Shown here: positions 2,383 through 23,480 of the stretch, in pieces
Numbering within the stretch: position 1 is the first letter of the stretch
How the letters are laid out: each line of letters starts with the position of its first letter
NCBI GenBank assembly: GCA_963922205.1
Contig: CAWUHX010000004.1
Span: 1,364,001 to 1,428,000 of the forward strand
Length of the DNA: 64,000 bases
Direction of reading: 5' to 3'
Source: Romanomermis culicivorax
Lineage: Eukaryota > Nematoda > Enoplea > Mermithida > Mermithidae
Notes under the pieces: generated by a model
Database searches by the model: none
What the model saw: only the letters and a program-made list of their open reading frames with translations
What the model was told of the DNA's origin: nothing
Program-made: the position numbers and the translations under genes

Positions 2383-2622
2383 GTCTATTTTATAGAGTGC
2401 TTCTAAAACCATAAATGACACATATATACATTGGACTAAAAGTCTTTTAATGAAGCTTTTACTGCAAAATTTTTTACTCAAAAAATTACTCAGTATTGGT
2501 TGAATTTTGTCACAAATTTTCAGTTCCATACAATTTAGGTCATGTTACAAACTGCTCAAAATATAAAATAGAACAGATTCTTTATTTAGTAGCATTTCAG
2601 CATTTCGAGAAAAATAGACTAT
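2379..2622 (+). mobile_element. TATAGTCTG-family MITE, abutting the previous copy
   Basis: A diverged second copy (CTATAGTCTATTTTAT ... AAAATAGACTATAG) begins at the last bases of the preceding MITE. The two lie head-to-tail and share the TA junction. Confidence 0.75.
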
Positions 2623-4084
2623 AGTGGGGCCAATTTATTTGTATGAAGAACGTTCACATGAGCTTATCATATGCAGGGTGTACATCGACTTCCTTTCTGC
2701 TATAAATATGATTTCACCTGTTAATGTCGACTGGAATTTCTCTAAGGTAAACATGCACATTTGGAAAGGATCTCATTTTTCACAAGTGCTCTAAAGTTAT
2801 CGCACTAAAATACTAGTACTGTTAAATTATGATATCTGTTCATGTAATATGTTTTACATTATTTCGACTGCCTTTGGTCGAAGATCAGCTATTCCGGCCT
2901 CCTGACGACCCAAATTTTTATCATTTTAAGGCATACAAGTAAGCCGATGAACAACCAAAATCATTTACATGAAAAAAAGGAAAATAGTCGGGAACTATCG
3001 TCAATGTCAGCTATAGCCAATATTATTTTGAAATTTTATACTTGTTTTGAATAATTCATACGCATTACTGTTTTTCTACTAATCTCTTTCGAAATGTCTC
3101 TAATTAGCATTAAAATATCAAAATATATCGATCATCTTCCACAGTTATTCAAATAAACGGCACACTGTTTATCATTTTTCTGGGTCCATTTGGTGTCCCA
3201 TCTATTCGGGGGCACGATGCATAAAAATTTTGCACTTCATCAGGCCACATTTTCGTCCAATCTTGTTTTTTACTCTCTCATGGAATCTCAAAGAGTGTGA
3301 CTAATCTGCAGAATCCGCATTTGGATGCGGAAATTCATAGTCATGTGGGAGGTTTGGGGGGATTTGACCTTCAGCAGATTCTTGCTGAACCCCAGCAGAT
3401 TTTACCACCCCAGCAATAAAAAAGAAGATCGATTGGAAAATGAGCAAGAGAGAAGAGAAAGTTGCCATAAAAATGGAAATGATGCTGTAGTTTAACAATT
3501 TTTCTAAACAAAGCATATATGATTCCAAAGGACTAACATTAAAAATTCAAAAAGAGCTGCCTAAGCAAATAATTTCACATATCTGACTAATAAAAGTTGA
3601 AGCATTTGCTGCTTGGATGTTAGAAGACCTATCTAAGACCTATTTTTCATGATCAAGAACGGAAAAATATTTTGTATTCAACCCCCTGTCTCAGCTGACC
3701 CCAAGCAGAATTTCTATGCTGTGCATGTATCCTCTGACAATAAACTTTGTTTTTGTTGCTCAATGAATATTATAGCAGAGGCTTATCGGGAATATATATG
3801 ATCAGGTAACCTTGGTCTGCGCATTACACAAAATGGGATTCAAGTTTAGAATATGAACCAGTAGATAACCCTCATTATCTTCCTTCATATGTATTCAAAG
3901 TGGGCGAAAAATCCTCATTGTCAATTCTCCAGGGCTGGTTTGAATAGAAAAAGTTGTTGGAAGAATGCTATTCTATCAAGATAAGGTTCGAAGTATCCAA
4001 GTAGGCTGAATGTAGCATGAAACATCACAATAATTACAATCTTCTGTTTTGAAACAATCTCACAATGCCAGATGTTTTTTTCAG
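2623..4084. other. No gene recognised
   Basis: AT-rich DNA without a convincing exon. Positions 3300-3420 carry a few degenerate copies of a CAGCAGATTCTGCTGAA-like word, which gives a spurious reverse-strand frame at 3301-3528. Confidence 0.5.
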
Positions 4085-4364
4085 ATTGCAGAAAAAAGAG
4101 AAGCGAGAAGTGCGGTGTGATGTTGAAGATTTGAACAACAGCCCAAGACATTTTAAAATTATTAATGAGGCTGTACAGAGTCAAGTTGCCGAATGCCCGC
4201 CTTTCAATGATGGCTCAAGATCAGAACATGCTGTTTTGGCGTTGTGTCAGGCTGCAGATTACCCTTTGAATTGTGGTAGTAAGGAACTTTTGTCCAAATT
4301 TCTTAGACTTACCCTACACTATGTTACCCAAAGAATGTATTCTAGTGAGGCTTCTCCATTGTAA
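4085..4364 (+). CDS. Possible terminal exon, unknown protein
   Basis: A strong acceptor (TTTTTTTTCAG, ending 4084) is followed by a frame open for 92 codons, read with one base left from the previous exon (phase 2), to TAA at 4362. Composition is balanced and hydrophilic, unlike the surrounding low-complexity DNA. Residues include RCDVEDLNNSPRHFKI and NDGSRSEHAVLALCQ, with four cysteines. AATAAA lies just downstream (about 4374). I recognise no family. It could be a real 3' exon or an old transposon-derived fragment; no upstream exon was found. Confidence 0.3.
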
Positions 4365-5852: not shown

Positions 5853-6419
5853 TTCTTCCACATAACTGGATGGCGATTGGAGACGACATGCAGACCCGCT
5901 GTCAAAAGAATATCAGTGTGGATGGAATTTTCCCTATAGCAACTTTCAGATGGAGAAAAATGCCCTATCCCAGTGATAACTATTATCGATTTTATGATGG
6001 TGGACATTCCGCGATTTTCTTGGGTTGCTCAAAATCAGGAGCAGCTTTCGTAAGCTTTAGGCCTCAAAAAAACATTTTTTGTAATGAATTATATTTAGGT
6101 GGCTGATCAATGGTGTGAATCACAATTCGGTGTTAGACGGCTGAATAGTGGGGATTTGATTCGTTATTTTGAAATTGGATCTTTCAGAAAAAATCCATAC
6201 CAAAGGGCTGTAATCCATGGTATTCAAGAAGTTGCAAAAAGTTTTCTTGTAGAACTCGGACAGAGATTCGAAGATCTCATTGAAGTTCGTGGTAGTAGAC
6301 ATTATTTTGTACGACCTGTCATGGATTGGCAAATTATGGAAGAATCGACTTGTTCACCAGAGTTCTCGGGTCCCTTTAAAGAAGAACAAATTATGCCACG
6401 TTTAGGTGAATTTCTGTAG
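5853..6419 (+). CDS. BPSL0067/NlpC-P60-like amidase, last two exons
   Basis: Exon 5853-6049 and exon 6099-6419 are joined by a 49-nt phase-0 intron (donor GTAAGC, acceptor ATATTTAG). The joined frame runs open to TAG at 6417. Residues NW..IG, GIFPIATFRW, YYRFYDGGHSAIFLG and AAFVADQW follow the order of the C-terminal half of bacterial BPSL0067-type proteins: W..G, GTAIATF, Y, GHAAIYLG, VDQW. In NlpC/P60-like enzymes the histidine of GGHSAIF would be catalytic. The nucleophile cysteine of the usual GQC motif should lie in an upstream exon that I did not find, so the gene is partial or broken at its 5' end. About 95 residues after ADQW are unlike the bacterial family. The acceptor before 5853 is ATCAAG rather than CAG, so that boundary is less sure. 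The function is inferred from motifs only. Confidence 0.6.
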
Positions 6420-10296: not shown

Positions 10297-10491
10297 ATGA
10301 ACTACGCTTTGGTCCTCTGGGCAACCCAATTTGCCATGAAAGTTCCCCTGGCCAGTTTACACACAAAACGGGAGCATATCATAAAACTCATTATTTGATC
10401 AATCTGACTCTGGAGACCAACTGTCGACTATTGGTGGAAATCAAACTTTTGTCCAATGACTCTCTGATTATGCTGGAAGAATGGGGACCAA
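10297..10491 (+). CDS. A/B-domain gene: domain A exon 1 located
   Basis: Acceptor TTCTTTTCTCAG and donor GTGAGT bound a 195-nt exon, phase 1 on both sides. Its 65 codons encode a domain with NPICHESS, then YLINLTLETNCRLLVEI and a closing EEWGP. The later exon at 15499-15693 has the same length and phase, a matching CRL.I core and the same WG ending, so both encode one domain type. N-glycosylation-like NLT and paired cysteines suggest an extracellular fold. I recognise no known family. The upstream (signal peptide) exon and the linker exon after it were not found; the 2.3 kb intron downstream carries a foldback element. Confidence 0.6.
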
Positions 10492-10689
10492 GTGAGTGAT
10501 ATCTCATATTCAGCATGTGTTTACCGATTGAGCCAGTTAAGCTAGCAAAGCAATCATCCTATGTGATCATTTTTTCAAATTTTGAAACAAAAGTGGTGCT
10601 CACCTCCACAATTTTTCTGTTGGATAAGTTGCCTGTATAAACATCACACATTACCATGCTAATCCTCCTTCGGTTCACAGAAGTCCAAT

Positions 10690-12165
10690 ACTCAGTTCTG
10701 AATCCATGACTGGACATTAGAGCTTAGGGATATTAGAGGCATTACGTTAGAGTGCAAGGAAATTACAGTGCAGGACAACAGAAGGCAGGCAAAATAGAGG
10801 GCAGTACAATAGAGCACAGGGACGTTGGAGTGCAGGAAAATATAACACATGGACATTAGAGTACAGGACAATAGGAGCAGGAAAATTAGAGCACAGTACA
10901 TTAGAGCACATGACATTAAAGCGCAAGGGCATTACAGCACAGGACAACAGAGGGTAGGGAGATTATAATGCAGGAGATAGAGCCCAGGGATGTTAAAGTG
11001 CAGGACAATATAGTGCAGGGACATTAGAGTGCAGGACAATGGAGTGCAGGTACATTAGAGCACACGAAATTACAGCACATGGACACAAGAGCACAGGACA
11101 ATAAAGCACAGGATAATAAAGTGCAGGAAAATAGAGTGCAGGGACATTAGATGTCAGAGACATTAGAGCACAGGACAATAGAACACAGGACAATAGAACA
11201 CAGGGAAATTTCAGCATAGGGCCATAAATGCACAAAGACGTTGGAGTGCATTTTGGAAAAAATGACTTTTTTGGGCAAACCTACCATGATCTGTAGTGAA
11301 CGTGAATTTTGAATTGATTTTAAACATAAAGGAATATTTCAAGCATGCAGATTTATTTCAAAAGCTGAAAAGAAACTCTGTGTGTCATTCAGAACGGGAG
11401 TTAGAAATTCAAGATGAATTTGGAAATAGCAAATCGAGACAACTTGATTTGTAGGCTTATAGGTCGAATATTTGTGATTTTTTGTGTTTTTCTCAATTTT
11501 TGAATTAAAGACGCCATTTTTTTATTAACAACTAGGACAAGCATTGATTTCCTGTTTATGAACTCACAAAATGTTTTTTAAATGGATTAGAGTTAACTCC
11601 CATAAGAGCAGCTTAATAAAAAAATATGAGTAATAAGAAAGTGAACAAACAATGAGACATAAAAATAAAAGAGAAAAGGCACAAGAAAATGAAAACAGAG
11701 AGGGAAAAATATTCAATAAAACATAGGAGATGGAAAGAGTAAGAAAGGTGAAATAAGAAAAAAAGAAAAGGAAAGAATTGAAAAGGAAGAAAAACTTGAA
11801 AAATACTCGATACTGGGGAAATAATTGAACTTCAAGATCTCCTGAGTCATGAAAAAATGCGAAGAAAGCATTTTTGAGCTGAAATGCAGATATATTTCAA
11901 ATTATTTTATTTTTGGCTTTTTTGTTCTACTCTGATCTGGTGTTTCTGTGCTCTTTTGTCCTGCAATCTATGGTCCCTGGGGCTCTATCGTCCTGTGCTC
12001 TATTGTCTGTGTGATCCATTGTTTCTGGCAATCTATTGTCCTGTGCTCTAATTTCTTGCACTCTGATGTCCTACCCTCTAACGTACCCATGCTCCAATGT
12101 TCCCACTCTAATGTCCATGCTCTATTCTCCCATCCTCTAACGTCTCAACACCCCTAGAATCATGG
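10690..12165. mobile_element. Foldback-like element with inverted GTGCAGGACAAT word arrays
   Basis: 10690-11250 is an array of an alternating 10-14 bp word (AGTGCAGGACAATAGAG, GCACAGGGACATTAGAG). 11940-12165 carries the same words inverted (CTCTATTGTCCTGTGC). The middle has a purine-rich tract (11590-11800). A second copy, split by nested insertions, spans 52.43-56.11 kb and matches the interior on both sides of the insertion. The element lies in an intron of the A/B gene. Long frames in the arrays are repeat artefacts. Confidence 0.7.
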
Positions 12166-12592
12166 CACAATATGGACCAGACCAACTCTACAACAAATGC
12201 CACCAAGAGAGGGATAGAAACCTCAATCAGTCGGCTGAGTCACACAATATCTTCTGACTTTAGTGCAAAAAATTAACAACAGCAAAAATTTGGAAAAAAA
12301 TTTGATGCAAAACTTTTGTCTGTTGTCTCTTTTTGCAGACTAACTTCAATGCTCAAAAAAATGTTGGAGTTAATTTTAAACCACTTGTGTATGAGGACGC
12401 CATTCTTCCTCCAATCAACTGAAGCAGTTAGACAAACAACAGCTCTACTTTTTATGTTCCTGTATTTTGGTTGGCAAAGCTATTTTCTATTGTCTACAAA
12501 AATTTGTAAGTTTAAACTGCTTACATTCAGATCTGCCAAAAAAATTTTAGAAACATCTTTGATCAGAGATTTTAAAAATTTTATGTTAACTT

Positions 12593-12655
12593 ATGTCAAT
12601 GCCTTTATTTCTGTACAAAATATATGTCAATGCCTTTATTTCTGTACAAAATATG
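12593..12655. repeat. Two-copy 30-bp tandem repeat
   Basis: ATGTCAATGCCTTTATTTCT plus ten further bases is repeated once, immediately and almost exactly. Confidence 0.85.
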
Positions 12656-12840
12656 AATATCTAAATCAAATTCAGAGACAAAATTAAAACAACAGATATG
12701 TCAGATTGTAAAACGTCAGATTGTAAAAAGTTATTTCTTACTTAGATGATGGTACGACCAAAAAGCAGTTGACTGGCTCTTGTATGAAGTAAAAGTTTAA
12801 ATTAATGATCCTTACAATTAACAATGTCATTCTTCACCAG

Positions 12841-13618
12841 CTCTATTTGTTACCGATTCTTGGAGTTCAACTTCAATGACCATGGCTGTTACCAAGGTGT
12901 AATCATCATGTATGAACTTCTGAAGAATTTTGGAGAAATGACATTCGCCATGACACCATTCGAAGTTTGTCCCACAACTATGGATTGTACGTATGAAAAA
13001 TTCAACATATTCATCCTTGACATAGAATGATTATCTTTTGCTAATGATCTACAGATGTAACCCACAACCACTATCACGAGTATCCACTAAGAGACGAGTA
13101 TGGCTATTCCAAAACTATAAATGTTAGAGCAGAACAATGCAGTACTGCCAGTGTGCCAAAGAGAAGACTATTGGATATAGAATGGACTGTCAATATGTCC
13201 ACTGAAAAACATATTGGCGATGTACTTTTCTTTGTTGACAACAGAAACTGTTTGCTGCAATTCGATTTCTACACAGAAGATAAAGGAACGGTATCAAAAC
13301 ACATGGGGCACATCTGCGAACTTTGCGAATGTAAGTTATAGTATACTTATATCATGATTTCTAAATGCCATTTTATTGTAGACTATGCATTTCCAATGAG
13401 GTTTGATATACACGAATGTTATGTGGATGATTCTGTGGATAGCAGTGGGGGAGCAGCAGTAATGTGCCACTGTTTCAAATGGATTAATGAATATACAATT
13501 CATGGAGATAAATGTTTCGAGGGCGAATTGATTGTCCAAAGTGGTATTTTCAAGAACCATTCTCTCATACCAACAAATTATATAATATACCCCTTTGACC
13601 TTTGTGCCAAAATTAAAA
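12841..13618 (+). CDS. A/B-domain gene: B, A, B exon cluster
   Basis: Three exons: 12841-12986 (B; acceptor TTCACCAG, donor GTACGT), 13055-13330 (A; acceptor TCTACAG, donor GTAAGT) and 13382-13618 (B with its linker; acceptor ATTGTAG, donor GTGAGA). The introns are 68 and 51 nt, both phase 1, and the joined frame has no stop. B is marked by C(Y/F)(R/K)(F/W)xE, then a C(Y/F)xG step and a late PF..(V/L)C, as in ICYRFLEFNFND...GCYQGV and CHCFKWINEY...KCFEGE. The A exon is longer (92 codons) but keeps a LFFVDNRNCLLQFDF core. The second B starts with EYYAFP, matching the separate linker exon DEIFP at 15753. If the donor at 13619 is not used, the frame stops at 13642. Cysteine-rich and probably secreted; family unknown. 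Confidence 0.65.
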
Positions 13619-13699
13619 GTGAGATGCGAATCATTTGCTGTTAATTAATTTCAAAGGCCAAGGAAATATTTTTGTGACTGTGATTCTTTCTTTGATCAG

Positions 13700-14900
13700 A
13701 GCTAAAGTATGTTTGGTAATCTGAGTGAATGGGGATTGCTTAGCAATGACTGGACTCGCTTCATTACAATTATGAGACACAATTTCTGGAGACTAGTCCT
13801 TTTATTACATTCACTTATGATGAGTTGAAAAATGATAATATCTTAAAATGAGGTCTTTTGAGTAGTTTTATGTGGTGAATATTGTGGAACCATACATTCA
13901 GCATGAAAGTCTATATTCTGATAGCTAATGGTCCAATTAAGTGCAGAATTTCTCCTCTTACAGTTTTAGTCAATCCCCTAACTTTGTAGTCAAATGATAA
14001 TTAAGTGTGCATCCTAGTCTATTATGCAACACCTATAATGTTATTTTCAAATTTGAAAATTAGGTTAAAATCAAGCTGAGAAACTTATTTGGAGTTCGTT
14101 TTTTGCATAACATTAAGCATAAGTTTTTTCTTTATTTCTGTACCCACTGATACTCAACATTTTGTGTTAAAATTTTAGTCAGATTTGTCAAACATGTTGA
14201 GAACTGTATGTGTCTGCACATTCTCACAGTTGATTCAAAAAGGATAAATATTGAAAACATACATTTAGGAAGTAAACATATGGGTCAAATTGCTGGTAAA
14301 TTGATCTATAGACAACAGATGTATGAATAGATTCTTACAGATGATGCTACAAAAATATGTTATTTTAGTTCGATTGAAAAAATTCCATGCCATAAGTTGA
14401 ATGTTACAAAATAAACGTCAGCTGTCTGACTACATCCTATGTAATAAGCTGCAAGAAAGTGATCTACAGTCAGATGCACCCTCTATAACACAATGTGACA
14501 TCAATCAAATAAAAATAGAACCAATTATGGATAACTGCTGCACATTTCAAATGCACCAAAGGCAGTGGATTTCAAGCAATTACTCACGGAAATTTATTAA
14601 ATTTTCAGTAGTCAACTTCTCATTTGAAGCATATTGTACAACCACCAAGAAAGCTAGTTCAATGAAAATCTATCAAGATTTTGTGCCACATTTTTTCTTC
14701 AAAGTTATACCCAAAAAACGATTTCTGTGTTCTCTGCACTTTATTTCTTGGAAAATAATATTGATTTGAAGAACATATTGTATGACTGTGCAGTGTATGT
14801 GACTCCAAAAATAAAACCAGATTGAATATTAAACACAAAATGCTCATCATAAGAGCCTAATGGAAAATTTTATGGCATAGTTTCGTTCAGTACCTGGATA
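13700..14900. repeat. Intronic relic of a dispersed repeat
   Basis: Stretches at 13800-13900, 14090-14240 and 14590-14700 resemble 33.84-33.95, 34.14-34.27 and 34.42-34.53 kb in the same order and orientation (for example TGTCTGCACATT and CATTTGAAGC). This marks an old transposable-element copy filling the intron. The 122-codon frame at 14401 falls in it and is not counted as a gene. Confidence 0.5.
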
Positions 14901-15498
14901 CAGGTTGAAAGGAGTTTTATGTTTTTCCACCTTATTTTAACACTTTTAAATAATGTAAAAAGTGTAAATTACGAGATTATAACATTTTTTAGATCCAAAT
15001 TATGAAAAAAACTTCGAATGTTTCCCTACCCTAGTGATATTATGAATACAATACATTGGAAATTGGTGGATTTCTGTTTCAGATACAGTACAATACTTTG
15101 AACTTTCATGCAAATCATGGAATAAAATTACCATGTGAAACCAAACCATAGACATTTTTCAGGTATGATTAACATTTAACTTAACATAGTCAAGGTTGAG
15201 TTTCTCAGAAAGAGGATTTTCTGACAGTGGTCATTCACACAATCATTGCCTTTTGAATTGTACAGACTGCGTTCCGTAAGCAGAATGTAGGATTGCAACT
15301 ATGTTCAAAGTCAAAGTGTAGCAAGTTCATACTGTCATTTAATTCCCAGATTTCAACATCAGAAAATGTTTTTGGTCTTACTACTCACTGTTTCAAAATT
15401 TGCATGCCAGCTCGTGTTTCACATGGATTCACTTGTTTCATCTTCCATATTCCTTCAGCACTCTAAAATGAATCCTCTTTTTATTTTTTCCTTTTTAG

Positions 15499-16055
15499 AA
15501 AATCAATCATTGCCATGTCTGTATAGCGGATATGCTGAAACAAATACCACTGTGTTCTTTACCTACTCCAGAACAGGTGAAGATACATCAGCTAATGTTA
15601 AAATAAAGATCAGCAAACATTGTCGTTTACATATTTCAATCAAGAAGAATTTTGTACCAATTGGATTTAATGATCATATGGATTGGGGTTGGGGTAAGAA
15701 AGTGTACTTCAAATGGATGTTCAGTCCATATTGAACACTTCTTAACATTCAGATGAGATATTCCCTTCACATTACAGCAATTCAAGGTGCAGCATTGGAA
15801 ATGCAAAGTAAAAAAAAGATACTAAATCTCTTGTGACAAAATAATTTATTTGTTAGATTTTCAGGTTCGCAAGGAATGGTGAATGGTACAGAGAACAAAT
15901 ATGCTTCAGATTTGCTGAAAGTCGTTTCAGCGACTATTGTTATAGTGGAGTACTTATGCTACAGAAAAGTATCATATTAAATGCAACAAACACCAGGATT
16001 CAGGAGTCAGCCATTCCTATAATGTATAACTTGTGTGCACCACCTAATGACATAG
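15499..16055 (+). CDS. A/B-domain gene: A, linker, B exons
   Basis: Exon 15499-15693 (A, 195 nt, acceptor CTTTTTAG, donor GTAAGA) encodes NQSLPCLYSGY ... ISKHCRLHISI ... DWGW. A 34-nt exon at 15753-15786 (acceptor TTAACATTCAG, donor GTGCAG) encodes DEIFPSHYSNS and shifts the phase from 1 to 2, which is what the next exon needs. Exon 15865-16055 (B, acceptor GATTTTCAG, donor GTAACA) encodes EQICFRFAESRFSDYCYSGV ... YNLCAPP. The B exon at 12841 also needs phase 2, so a linker exon probably exists there too. The small exon is inferred from phase and from its match to EYYAFP in the fused exon at 13382. The GTAACA donor is weak. Confidence 0.6.
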
Positions 16056-16349
16056 GTAACAGGTCAAACTCAAATATACATAGTTTTACCCTCGCAACCA
16101 CTTTTCAAAAACACAAGTGAGTCATCCAATTCTGCACAAAGAGTCGATGATAGTATACAATTTACTCTAGGTGTATCTCAATTAAGTCCTTAATCTTCCT
16201 CTGACCTGACAGGCCACTCATTTGGGGTTAATAAATTATGAGTTCCCATGAATATGACAATACAAGTCATGACCTCTTAGTGTTATCACATGAGAACAAT
16301 AAACTATGCATCCTGCTGCTAATAGATAGATGTCAATGCCTATTTTCAT

Positions 16350-16447
16350 AAGTGACATTGCTGTCATTTCTTTCCTGGTACCATACAAGTGCACAGTGCA
16401 TGTGTGTACTTGTATGGAGACAGGAAAGAAATGACAGCAATGTCATT
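16350..16447. repeat. Near-perfect 98-nt hairpin inside an intron
   Basis: Arm GTGACATTGCTGTCATTTCT (continuing through TTCCTG and CCATACAAGT) pairs over about 40 bp with the downstream arm ACTTGTATGG...AATGTCATT, with about four mismatches and a 17-nt loop. It lies in the intron 16056-16833 of the A/B gene. It could be a palindromic MITE or a small-RNA precursor. Confidence 0.8.
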
Positions 16448-16833
16448 TATTAATGCATAATTGATGCCCAATTTTTTTATTTGAATGTAGACCTGGGCTG
16501 TACTCAGGCAGACCAGGAGAATAATTTTCCAATGCATACCCTAACTTTATACACAAATCCGGATTCAGATTATATAGTTGATAGGTTTTTCATCCAATTC
16601 TGATTTGTTATCCGCACTGAGCACCTCTCAGTCAACATTTCTGGAATTATTCAATAATCGGAATCTCTTCTGCTTGTCTTCCTTTTACTGTTTGCTTTGA
16701 ATCAGAGATGCTGCAAGCAAGCATAACTATAGCATTGACTCTGATTCTGCATTCATGGGAACATTAACCCTCTTTTTTGTGAGCCTTTTCAATTTTCTGC
16801 TGATGTCTGGCATAAAAATTGAATTCATTGCAG

Positions 16834-17140
16834 ATCCTCCACCCTTATCTGCAAGCTACAGAGAGATGTGCTATGCCATACTTGATGCACACCATACAAT
16901 GCTAGTCTGGCAGAACTTTGATGGTGAAACGCATTATGAAAATGTGACAATTCAAATACACAGGAGTATGAACTGTGAATTACGAATGAATGTAGTATGG
17001 AGAGAAAAAGTTTACAAAACAACGTTCGGAGCCACAAGTCAGTTAATCCATTACGTTATGGGATTGTTGAATAAATCCTCGTTTTTCAGATATCAAAGTT
17101 GAAGAACAGAATATGAATGATAAAATATGCATGGGGTAGG
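16834..17140 (+). CDS. A/B-domain gene: last A exon and terminal exon
   Basis: Exon 16834-17037 (acceptor GAATTCATTGCAG, donor GTCAGT, phase 1) encodes a third complete A domain: REMCYAILD ... IQIHRSMNCELRMNV ... TTFGAT. A 52-nt intron ending CTCGTTTTTCAG leads to exon 17090-17140, which encodes IKVEEQNMNDKICMG and then stops (TAG). The tail has no membrane segment, which fits a secreted product. If the GTCAGT donor is skipped, the frame runs to TGA at 17100. Confidence 0.6.
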
Positions 17141-17510
17141 AAATTTAATTTTAGGTAGATATCAGTGGAAGATCTGATTTTTTAAGGCCGGATGCTGTCA
17201 TCGTTTGCTTCACTCTTCACCAGCAACAAAGCACCAACATGGGTTGTCTCACAGCTACACTGCATCTAAGTGTAGTGCAGAGACACAGCTATGACTTTTA
17301 TTCCTTGTTGACGAGCCAGAATATTCACTTCAACTCATGTCCTCTCCATTGCCTAGTGATATGAAAATGGAAATTACTTTCATGTAAAAAGTATCGAATT
17401 GATATATCCTTCAAATTTTTTAAATAGAATGTGTTTCCTAGTATTCTTCTCCACCTTTTGAGAAATGAATAAACTGACATCAACGTTAAATAATCTATTG
17501 AATTGTGAAT

Positions 17511-18785: not shown

Positions 18786-19435
18786 TGCTTAGGCATAGCC
18801 TTAGGCTTAGGCTTAGGCTTAGGCTTTGGCTTAGGCCTGGGCTTAGGCTTAGGGTTAGGCTTAGGCTTAGGCTTAGGCTTAGGCTTAGGCTTAGGCTCAG
18901 GCTTAGGCTTTGGCTTAGGCTTAGGCTTAGGCTTAGGCTTAGGCTTAGGTTTAGGCTTAAGCTTAGGCTTAGGCTTAGGCTTAGATTTAGGCTTAGGCTT
19001 AGGCTTAGGCTTAGGCTTAGGCTTAGGCTTAGGCTCAGGCTTAGGCTTAGGTTTAGGCTTAGGCTTAGGCTTAGGCTTAGGCTTAGGCTTAGGCTTAGGC
19101 TTTGACTTAGGCCTGGGCTTAGGCTTAGGGTTAGGCTTAGGCTTAGGCTTAGGCTTAGGCTTAGGCTTAGGCTCAGGCTTAGGCTTAGGCTTAGGCTTAG
19201 GTTTAGGCTTAAGCTTAGGTTTAGGCTTAAGCTTAGGCTTAGGCTTAGGCTTAGGCTTAGGCTTAGGCTTAGGCTTAGGCTTAGGCTTAGGCTTAGGCTT
19301 AGACTTAGGCTTAGGCTTAGGCTTAGGCTTAGGCTTAGGCTTAGGCTTAGGCTTAGACTTAGGCTTAGGCTTAGGCTTAGGCTTAGGCTTAGGCTTAGGC
19401 TTAGGTTTAGGCTTAGGCTTAGGCTTAGGCTTATG
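18786..19435 (+). repeat. Interstitial telomere-type (TTAGGC)n array
   Basis: About 650 bp of TTAGGC in register with scattered variant units (TTTGGC, TCAGGC, TTAAGC, TTAGAC, GGGTTA). TTAGGC is the nematode telomere unit. Single-copy-looking DNA lies on both sides, so it is internal in this assembly. A variant block (TTAGGCCTGG, then GGGTTA, then TCAGGC) recurs 276 bp (46 units) downstream, which points to tandem duplication inside the array. Long frames encoding LSLSLS or RLRLRL are artefacts. Confidence 0.95.
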
Positions 19436-20804: not shown

Positions 20805-21250
20805 GTCACGTGTCGCATGGCCGTACATCACCCCTTTGTACCAATCACAGCACTGGCTCGGTGCTGCGATTGTCATTGTCACTATAGTCACAGAGACCCG
20901 GGTTCGAATCCCCGTCGAGCATTATTTTTCGAACAGTGTTTGGCGATGGTTACGATGGCAACGCATTTACCCATTACGTGTCATGGCGAGGTTTGGATTG
21001 GTCCCACATTGGTGAGCCGCAGAACCTGCATCTTCAACGGACGAGGTCCTCCTTCTTTCAAAGGGGGAATGTCACGTGTCGCATGGCCGTACATCACCCC
21101 TTCGTACCAATCGCAGCACTGGCTCGGTAGTTCAATCGGAAGAACGCTGCACTATAGTCACAGAGACCCAGGTTCGAATCCCGGTCGAGCATTATTTTTC
21201 CAACAGTGTTTGGCGATGGTTACGATAGCAAGGCGTTTACCCATTACGTG
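20805..21250 (+). repeat. 266-bp tandem repeat carrying tRNA-like heads
   Basis: A unit starting GTCACGTGTCGCATGG repeats at 21071, a period of 266 bp. The second copy is incomplete and ends CATTACGTGTCAG. Each unit holds a tRNA-like stretch followed by the same non-tRNA body. The overlapping 200-codon frame (20667-21269) arises because the period leaves the frame open; it is not a gene. Confidence 0.8.
21122..21190 (+). tRNA. tRNA-like unit (probable SINE head or pseudogene)
   Basis: GCTCGG at the start pairs with TCGAGC at the end. TAGTTCAATCGGAAGAAC resembles a D arm, and AGGTTCGAATCC is an exact box-B/T-loop. The anticodon stem has mismatches (CTGCA against CACAG), leaving a CTATAGT-like loop, so a working tRNA is unlikely. 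The sister copy at 20852-20922 keeps the T arm but has lost the D arm. Confidence 0.45.
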
Positions 21251-21889: not shown

Positions 21890-23480
21890 TGTAAAATGAT
21901 GAATTCTTGCTTGCACTAGGGTTTGATCCTTGAACTTTAATCTTCTGAGTTGGGGGCTTCTACTTTTTACCATCATTAAAGGTTCATTAAACTTCATTAA
22001 GGGATGCAATGGCTCACCCGGTTGAATAGAAGATCTAACCAAGTGAATAACTCTCATTTTCATACATGTTACACAAAGAATATTCTACATTTGGAGTTTA
22101 AACAAAATCTATTAGATGCAGAATTTTCTCATGTGTCTGTTGATAATTCTAACATTGTGCAATCTTTTATATTTACTGTTGTTTGCCATGAAAAGTCGTG
22201 ACCTCCAAAAACTTGTACTTTCTAAATGGCAGAATGGCGAAATAGAGACAAAAATTAGCAGCAACTTAAGCAATATTATCAGCCTAGCTACAATCAAGCG
22301 ATGGATTCAAAAGCTAAACATGGAAGGCCAATTAATTTAGTCAGTCTTCCAGTCGACCTCACACTGTCTGATCAAGGGTGCTGATCAAAAAGGTGAAGAA
22401 TCGTATTGGATGAAAATGACAAATTTCAACTCGAATTTTGGTGAAGGAACTTAGCATTTCCCATTCATCAATGCAAGGCGCCTTATCAGGTGACCTTAAT
22501 CTTAAGCCCTATAAAAAGGTTGTGCAGCCTCTCCTAACTGATGGTCACAAAACGAAGCATGGACAATTTGTCAACTGGTTCCGCAACAATTTTTGCAAAC
22601 AAGACACTCTGAAATTTTTGTTTTCTGACGAAAAAATGTTCAGCACTGACGGAGCTTCAAATTCTCAAAATGACCATGTCTGGGCAGTCGATGGAGCTTC
22701 TGCTGATCAAAATGGCGGCATAAAGCAAAATTGGAAATTTCCACAGTGGGTTATGGTTTGGCTTGGTGTCAGTTCAAAAGGTGAGTGGGTTTGTTTTCTC
22801 ATCTCTCCATTGATTGTTGATGACTTTCTTCACCATTTGAAGGTGTTACTGACTTGGTTATCCTCCAAGGAAAGGTTGATCATCAGCAGTATATTAAAGA
22901 AGTGTTGCTCATGGCCTCAAAATGTGGGAATGAATTGTTCAGAAATGATTGGACCTTCCAGCAAGATGGGACCTCGATTCACACTAACCGAAGATCACAA
23001 GCATGATGCAGCGACTATTTTCCGAGGTTCATTGACAAAGAGCATTGGCCTCTGACTTCTCTCGACCTGAATCCTTTGGATTATTCTATTTGGAATGAGT
23101 TTGTCAGTCAAATGCACTGGAATCGTATGAAAAACATGAAAACCTTGATCGAAGAATTGAAATGTGCTGTAAAATGAATTGGGCCTGAAATTTGTTTAGA
23201 AAGTTGTGAATCTTCTACTGTTTGTTCGAACTGTGTTTTTCAAAACAAAGGCAATTATTGTGAATAGTGGCTTATTGTTGCTTATATACAATAAAATTGT
23301 CTTTAAAGTAAGCCATTGATGAATGCTTTAATACATAAGGAAGCTGAGAAAAATTCAAGGAGAGTAGAGGTTCATTTATTATGACTCACCATTTTGGCTC
23401 ATATGGCTGAGTAGTTACAGCTCCCAAGTCACAAGCTCAAGGTTGAGGGATCAAATCCCACTGTAAGCAAGAATTTATGA
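21890..23480 (+). mobile_element. Mariner-like element flanked by inverted tRNA-like repeats
   Basis: A degenerate transposase gene (22116-23180) sits between two inverted tRNA-like sequences. One lies at about 21900-21970 (reverse; ends CAAGCAAGAATTCATC). The other lies at about 23400-23480 (forward; box A TATGGCTGAGTAGTTA, box B GGGATCAAATCCCA, ends AAGCAAGAATTTATG). The outer repeats could be SINEs or could belong to the element. Confidence 0.65.
22116..23180 (+). pseudogene. Tc1/mariner-superfamily transposase, broken
   Basis: The N-terminal part encodes LQKLVLSKWQNGEIETKI and LATIKRWIQKLN, a helix-turn-helix-like segment. The frame is then lost near 22340-22430 and resumes at 22438 with the catalytic core: LFSDEKMFSTDG (first acid) and QWVMVWLGVSSKG. 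A shift follows near 22790. The second acid (DWTFQQDGTSIHT, about 22950) and the third (SLDLNPLDYSIWNEF, about 23060-23105) are both readable in another frame. At least three breaks make it inactive. Family assignment is secure from the DEKMF / QQDG / DLNPLDYS order. Confidence 0.88.

Follow-up and report, generated by a model that had tools for sequence, protein, structure and literature searches.

A family of nematode genes joining a distant relative of bacterial Tae2/BPSL0067 amidases to four copies of an unnamed cysteine-containing module

Bacterial lysins consist of a catalytic domain plus accessory modules. To our knowledge, the bacterial amidases that animals have domesticated are small single-domain proteins. 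The tick protein Dae2 is described in two reports as acquired horizontally from bacteria and as antibacterial (PMC7962413; PMC11347951), and secreted NlpC/P60 enzymes bearing SH3b modules are described for Trichomonas in a third (PMC6299479). Here we report on a gene in a 64,000-nucleotide stretch of the genome of the mermithid nematode Romanomermis culicivorax (contig CAWUHX010000004.1, here C4, positions 1364001-1428000; this whole stretch is termed the window, and coordinates given without a contig are window positions). Its predicted product joins an N-terminal domain (the N domain), distantly related to bacterial Tae2/BPSL0067 amidases, to four tandem copies of a second unit, the A-B module. 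Our preferred reading, to which we assign a probability of about 0.5, is that it belongs to an amplified gene family encoding an antibacterial protein of lysin-like type, in which the head resembles an amidase and the four modules have a putative binding role. The genome searched comprises 359 Mb, and its 26 exon matches to the nuclear-receptor zf-C4 domain mark it as that of an animal; no match to the nematode spliced leader 22-mer was obtained in it.

The N domain, encoded by the first three exons identified (N1 to N3), carries motifs that, ahead of any searching, suggested the BPSL0067/type VI secretion system amidase family. With a profile built from 13 relatives, three of them being N2 or N2-N3 pieces only, a single PDB match was obtained up to an expect value (E) of 10, namely 6win_A, Type 6 secretion amidase effector 2 (Tae2), at E 0.0023. 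When NCBIfam was searched member by member, BPSL0067 (NF033857) was matched by nine of the 13 relatives (best E 0.0028; 12.4 bits and E 0.14 for the window copy itself) and no other family was. Among relatives submitted singly, six of nine matched it; the best of these reached 17.9 bits, where the cut-off is 27. The same 13 sequences reversed, as a control, gave no PDB match and one unrelated family in one of the 13 (E 0.18). Alignment of the N domain with the matched Tae2 stretch by hhalign gave a probability of 94.7 and 45% identity over 40 columns, in a pairwise comparison with a stretch chosen post hoc. The motifs IATF, GGHSAIF/GNHAAFF and VxDQW stand in register between the N domain and 6win_A, the N domain having the Tae2-type motif G-H-x-A-I-F and then VxDQW as in that structure; this alignment in register, along with retention of H107 in 12 of 13 aligned N relatives, indicates that the histidine motif is shared. 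Two cysteines, C46 and C55, each occur in every one of the ten rows that cover them.

On sequence grounds, the N domain shows a distant homology, weak but specific, to the Tae2/BPSL0067 amidases of bacteria; because it fails the curated cut-off, we do not file it as a BPSL0067 member. We infer that it either derives from these papain-like (NlpC/P60-like) peptidoglycan amidases or is more remotely related to them, as in the domesticated Dae2 proteins of ticks, and that its origin may be bacterial. The NF033857 family search gave no match in the R. culicivorax genome itself, and likewise none in control genomes, which makes it uninformative; tblastn of the N domain against plasmids found no relative (one chance match, E 3), and nor did a search of viral contigs with the N alignment. 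The initial annotation had been able to name no domain in this locus, a statement that holds for the A and B exons in our library searches but not for the first three exons, which form a different, recognisable domain. An unlikely alternative is that the N domain resembles Tae2 only superficially and is a hydrolase or transferase of papain-like type acting on a different substrate, such as a lipid or a protein. The similarity to Tae2 is mostly limited to the histidine half, and permuted-core NlpC/P60 relatives act on lipids according to one report (PMC12994826), but the sole matches obtained are to Tae2 (PDB) and BPSL0067 (NCBIfam).

When joined in silico, 14 exons, given below after a candidate upstream element, yield a single frame of 812 residues, counted from N1 to one terminal stop (a start exon was not found), with AG at all acceptors, GT at all donors and compatible phases; the layout of the spliced product is the N domain followed by (A-B)x4.

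2618 to 2746, forward strand: candidate upstream exon or conserved 5' element; open reading frame ending ...VDWNFSK, donor AAG/gtaaac
4085 to 4275, forward strand: exon N1; N domain, with cysteine candidates LC and NC; conserved upstream of paralogs
5853 to 6049, forward strand: exon N2; N domain, with the histidine motif GGHSAIFLG
6099 to 6405, forward strand: exon N3; from VADQWC... to GPFKEEQIMPRL; phase 1 end, which fits A1
10297 to 10491, forward strand: exon A1; AG/GT borders, exactly 195 nt
12746 to 12788, forward strand: linker exon L1 (DGTTKKQLTGSCM); phase 1 to 2
12841 to 12986, forward strand: exon B1; AG/GT borders
13055 to 13330, forward strand: exon A2; AG/GT borders
13382 to 13618, forward strand: exon B2, with its linker built in; AG/GT borders
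15499 to 15693, forward strand: exon A3; AG/GT borders, exactly 195 nt
15753 to 15786, forward strand: linker exon L3 (DEIFPSHYSNS); 34 nt, phase 1 to 2
15865 to 16055, forward strand: exon B3; AG/GT borders
16834 to 17037, forward strand: exon A4; AG/GT borders
17090 to 17135, forward strand: linker exon L4 (IKVEEQNMNDKICM); phase 1 to 2, donor GGG/GTAGG
17187 to 17364, forward strand: exon B4 (PDAVIVCF...CPLHCLVI) with the stop codon; present in 11 of the 13 gene copies described below

This model retains much of what had been proposed for the locus and extends it at both ends. The seven main exons of the initial annotation are real, having AG/GT borders, and are not due to chance, since their exon order recurs in paralogs at other sites in the genome and the ratios of nonsynonymous to synonymous substitution rates (dN/dS) with them are 0.25-0.27. 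The two exons of 195 nt are as first reported, and the small DEIFP exon does make the phases fit. The A-B-A-B-A-B-A pattern gives way to four A-B pairs, the fourth being completed by B4, and the gene reaches upstream to at least 4085; the terminal stub KICMG, taken as the last exon, is the linker L4 on the evidence of the paralogs. Phase 1, which had been assigned to all domain borders, applies to the A exons but not to B1, B3 and B4, which are entered in phase 2 via linkers. A linker exon predicted to lie between 10.5 and 12.84 kb was located as L1, which is conserved in the gene copies P1, P3, P4 and P5; no candidate for it was found in copy P6.

The 812-residue product has 35 cysteines and nine N-glycosylation sequons, and no transmembrane-like stretch was found in it; the protein is cysteine-rich, N-glycosylatable and probably secreted. 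The upstream element at 2618-2746 is little changed relative to copy P1, inside a block that is 86.5% identical overall. The element was found in six places including that in the window, five of which sit 1.3-4.2 kb upstream of an N1. We regard the element as a candidate first exon or regulatory element, its membership of the messenger RNA being unproven.

The distance of 3.9 kb between N3 and A1 in the window allows a reading in which two neighbouring genes, a small one for the N domain and another for the A/B repeats, travel together in a tandem unit, as does the existence of an N-only gene on contig C24, which stops soon after a GP motif, and of similar loci. However, N3 ends in phase 1, exactly as A1 requires, and N3 and A1 form one uninterrupted open frame at two distant loci, C268:149026-149541 and C94:1075836-1076348 (of which that on C268 was fetched and read). 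Since the frame is shared in this way, the N and A/B exons constitute one gene, and the two-gene reading is nearly excluded. Exons N1, N2 and N3 precede A1, with order and strand conserved, in nine of 13 gene copies, i.e. the window copy (W), P1, P4 and P6-P11, with only the second part of N1 having been read in P6, P8, P10 and P11. N exons are likewise placed at C268 and C94. P12 has N2 and N3, and P5 has only N1.

The 13 copies in the genome, W included, were identified by protein search of the genome and from fetched loci. Three are in tandem on C4 (one being the window gene), five are on C103, two on C5, and one each on C85, C2 and C222. C85 seems to represent the second haplotype of C4, because its N1 is identical to that of the window and because its copy P3 is nearly identical to P2. 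The exon order B1-A2-B2-A3-B3-A4 is kept in all 13 copies; A1 was found in 12, the exception being P5, and B4 was not found in the two C5 copies, P6 and P11. Three copies are damaged. P5 (C103:154394-161043), with in-frame stops in A2 and A4 where its nearest relatives have tryptophan, reads as a decaying copy; P2 has a frameshifted A1 and a 100-N gap in its stretch; and in P12 the frame of B1 is broken. C268 carries a more distant copy, ~26-40% identical over most exons, and there is a like locus on C94. At the C268 copy, tblastn located N1, N2, N3-A1, B1, A3 and B3, and inspection by eye added A2, B2 and A4, but not B4.

Values of dN/dS were calculated with our own Nei-Gojobori script over up to 534 codons in 18 copy pairs, some of which include damaged copies. 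They fall at 0.15-0.35 in 14 of the 18 pairs, with values for W of 0.25 against P1 and 0.27 against both P3 and P4; dS is saturated for W against P6, P7 and P9, and the P2-P3 pair gives 0.76, P2 carrying a frameshifted exon. For single exons, the values lie between 0.07 (N2) and 0.40 (A4) in the comparison of W with P1, B4 excepted, and between 0.11 (N2) and 0.48 (B4) in that of W with P4. The coding sequences show a gene family under purifying selection.

The A-B module spans ~125 residues. Our alignment of it contains 18 modules, taken from W, P6, P7, P9 and P10 (five of the 13 copies) and from the C268 gene, which contributed three. Six columns are invariant (C6, C41, L43, C89, C101 and C133, i.e. 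five cysteines and one leucine), and G104 is nearly so. The earlier suggestion of an old internal duplication under constraint with its cysteines kept is supported. In pairwise Smith-Waterman comparisons (500 shuffles each for B1-B3), B1-B3 gave z scores of 5.6, 6.2 and 11, and the A exons were marginal, at best 2.9 (A1-A3) and 2.7 (A3-A4); in this single-sequence test the A3-B1 pair, at z 3.9, scored above the best A-A pair. In a leave-one-out profile test the omitted B exon was recovered in three of three cases, at E 0.002-0.02; among the matches listed for the A exons, A3 alone was recovered (E=1).

Profiles made from the paralogs, with P2 (A1, A4, B4) and P12 (B1) dropped as broken or mis-assigned and identical rows also dropped, support homology in four of six B-B pairs (E 2e-7 to 7e-4) and in four of six A-A pairs (E 9e-4 to 4e-3). 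The pairs A1-A2, A1-A4, B2-B4 and B3-B4 are not significant alone, and all 16 A-B comparisons were worse than E 0.04. With the distant paralog left out, three of six A-A pairs fell below E 0.01 and all 16 A-B comparisons were above 0.03. Because A and B alternate in every copy, one module split by introns is as probable as the two domains of the initial annotation.

Searches of Pfam and PDB with the A and B exons, the joined protein and the modules, and of PHROGs with the joined protein, returned nothing usable, the best PDB match to the modules being discoidin-1 (E 0.081) and a weak PHROG match being to an endonuclease (E 0.053); a search of viral contigs with the A/B protein gave no relative. 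As judged from these sequence searches, the A-B module matches no known family and is unnamed in Pfam, PDB and, for the joined protein, PHROGs. It is probably rich in beta strands. The better part of a structure model, B2, has a predicted local distance difference test (pLDDT) score of 50-64 and is drawn as strands.

N-domain loci lacking A/B modules are present on C24, C260, C231 and C145, that on C24 being the one that was read. The C24 gene (C24:659245-660055) has the exon order start-N1-N2-N3, all or some of which is repeated at C260 and C231, and by eye a signal-peptide-like start.

A number of results weigh against the lysin-like reading. With respect to the relationship itself, no N match reached the curated cut-off of 27 bits, four of the 13 N members match nothing in NCBIfam, none of the 13 matches Pfam and PHROGs gave nothing significant for the N domain. 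With respect to catalysis, HMMER aligns C55 with the Tae2 cysteine, whereas hhalign at default confidence leaves the cysteine half unaligned; judged by eye, SEHAVLALC looks helical and is a better fit to the cysteine helix, in which case a histidine (H40, a histidine in nine of ten rows) would occupy that site; and the C24 relative has a serine at the histidine column. With respect to binding, the sole tie of the A-B modules to glycans is a sub-threshold match to CBM56 (PF22184) in two of 18 modules, at 19.9 and 13.7 bits against a Pfam gathering score of 27 (best E 0.00087); the weakly similar stretch, in A3, covers 36 of 75 positions, and the 16 other modules are unmatched. A structure model made from the window sequences alone was unusable (pLDDT 39). 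Upstream of both A1 and N1, where a signal-peptide exon had been expected, no convincing candidate was found for the window gene, and dN/dS for B4 against P1 is 1.64, from 7 changes (6 against 1).

Some of these points are equally those expected under the main rival, which we consider possible but doubtful, that the N domain has an amidase fold that is catalytically dead and that the protein is a multivalent recognition or adhesion molecule (for bacterial pattern recognition, or for gamete or matrix adhesion) of which the A-B repeats are the working part. The cysteine nucleophile cannot be assigned and the histidine is lost in one relative; four cysteine modules with nine sequons resemble an extracellular adhesive protein; and P2 and P3 have no detectable N exons, though P3 keeps eight A/B exons, all open. 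Set against this proposal, N2 has the lowest dN/dS among the exons compared, and the existence of other loci in the genome where the N domain stands apart from A/B modules suggests that it has an independent function.

Under the lysin-like reading, for which tick Dae2 and the secreted NlpC/P60 enzymes with SH3b modules serve as analogies, peptidoglycan would be cut or bound by the amidase-like head, and the four A-B modules would bind a glycan or cell-wall surface, or multimerise the protein. The repeats may hold the head on bacterial peptidoglycan, as in a bacterial lysin, and the protein might act as an immune or gut antibacterial factor; wall binding, enzymatic activity and an antibacterial role are all proposed here by analogy. 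We suggest, more tentatively, that an animal lineage acquired a bacterial Tae2-type amidase, added four copies of a cysteine module not described before as a targeting array, and by amplification obtained a family of lysins of its own making, while amidase-like genes that stand alone form a second family. If true, this would illustrate the assembly of a modular lysin by an animal out of a weapon transferred from bacteria, in a head-repeat fusion spread over about a dozen loci, and would provide a new extracellular domain family, the ligand of which is directly testable.

The surroundings of the gene contain several repeats. A TTAGGC array of ~108 units lies at 18787-19433, 1.4 kb past the window gene, and the two remaining tandem copies on C4 are each followed, at a distance of ~0.4 kb, by exact TTAGGC matches (C4:1345264-1345492; C4:1360239 onward); because it is found after all three copies, the array seems to be part of the duplicated unit. 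Across the genome, a five-unit TTAGGC motif is matched 12229 times in forward and 13202 times in reverse orientation. The A1-B1 intron contains a minisatellite of ~15-bp units (consensus CAGGACATTAGAGCA) at 10748-11210. At 22420-23055 there is a 211-aa open frame with, by eye, the look of a Tc1/mariner-type transposase and no Pfam match at E 0.1. Two tRNA-family matches, at 21121-21192 (37.2 bits) and 23397-23469 (31 bits; gathering score 29), could be tRNA-derived repeats.

In comparison with known systems, the likeness of the N domain to Tae2 and Dae2 consists of the motifs shared with 6win_A and of the stand-alone relatives, one of which has a signal-peptide-like start. It differs in that the N domain here runs on into N3 and is joined to four A-B modules, in that its scores are below the cut-off and in that its cysteine is not assignable. 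Dae proteins are small, single-domain and secreted as far as is known, a description that the C24 relative fits and the window gene does not. No animal amidase fused to such repeats was apparent in the literature as represented by titles and the openings of abstracts, in a coverage outside which most subscription journals fall. Although the catalytic domain is C-terminal in the Trichomonas vaginalis NlpC/P60 hydrolases (PMC6299479) and the catalytic-like domain is N-terminal here, and no SH3b match was obtained here, the layout proposed for the R. culicivorax protein is like theirs and like that of lysins, i.e. a papain-like catalytic domain combined with repeated accessory modules.

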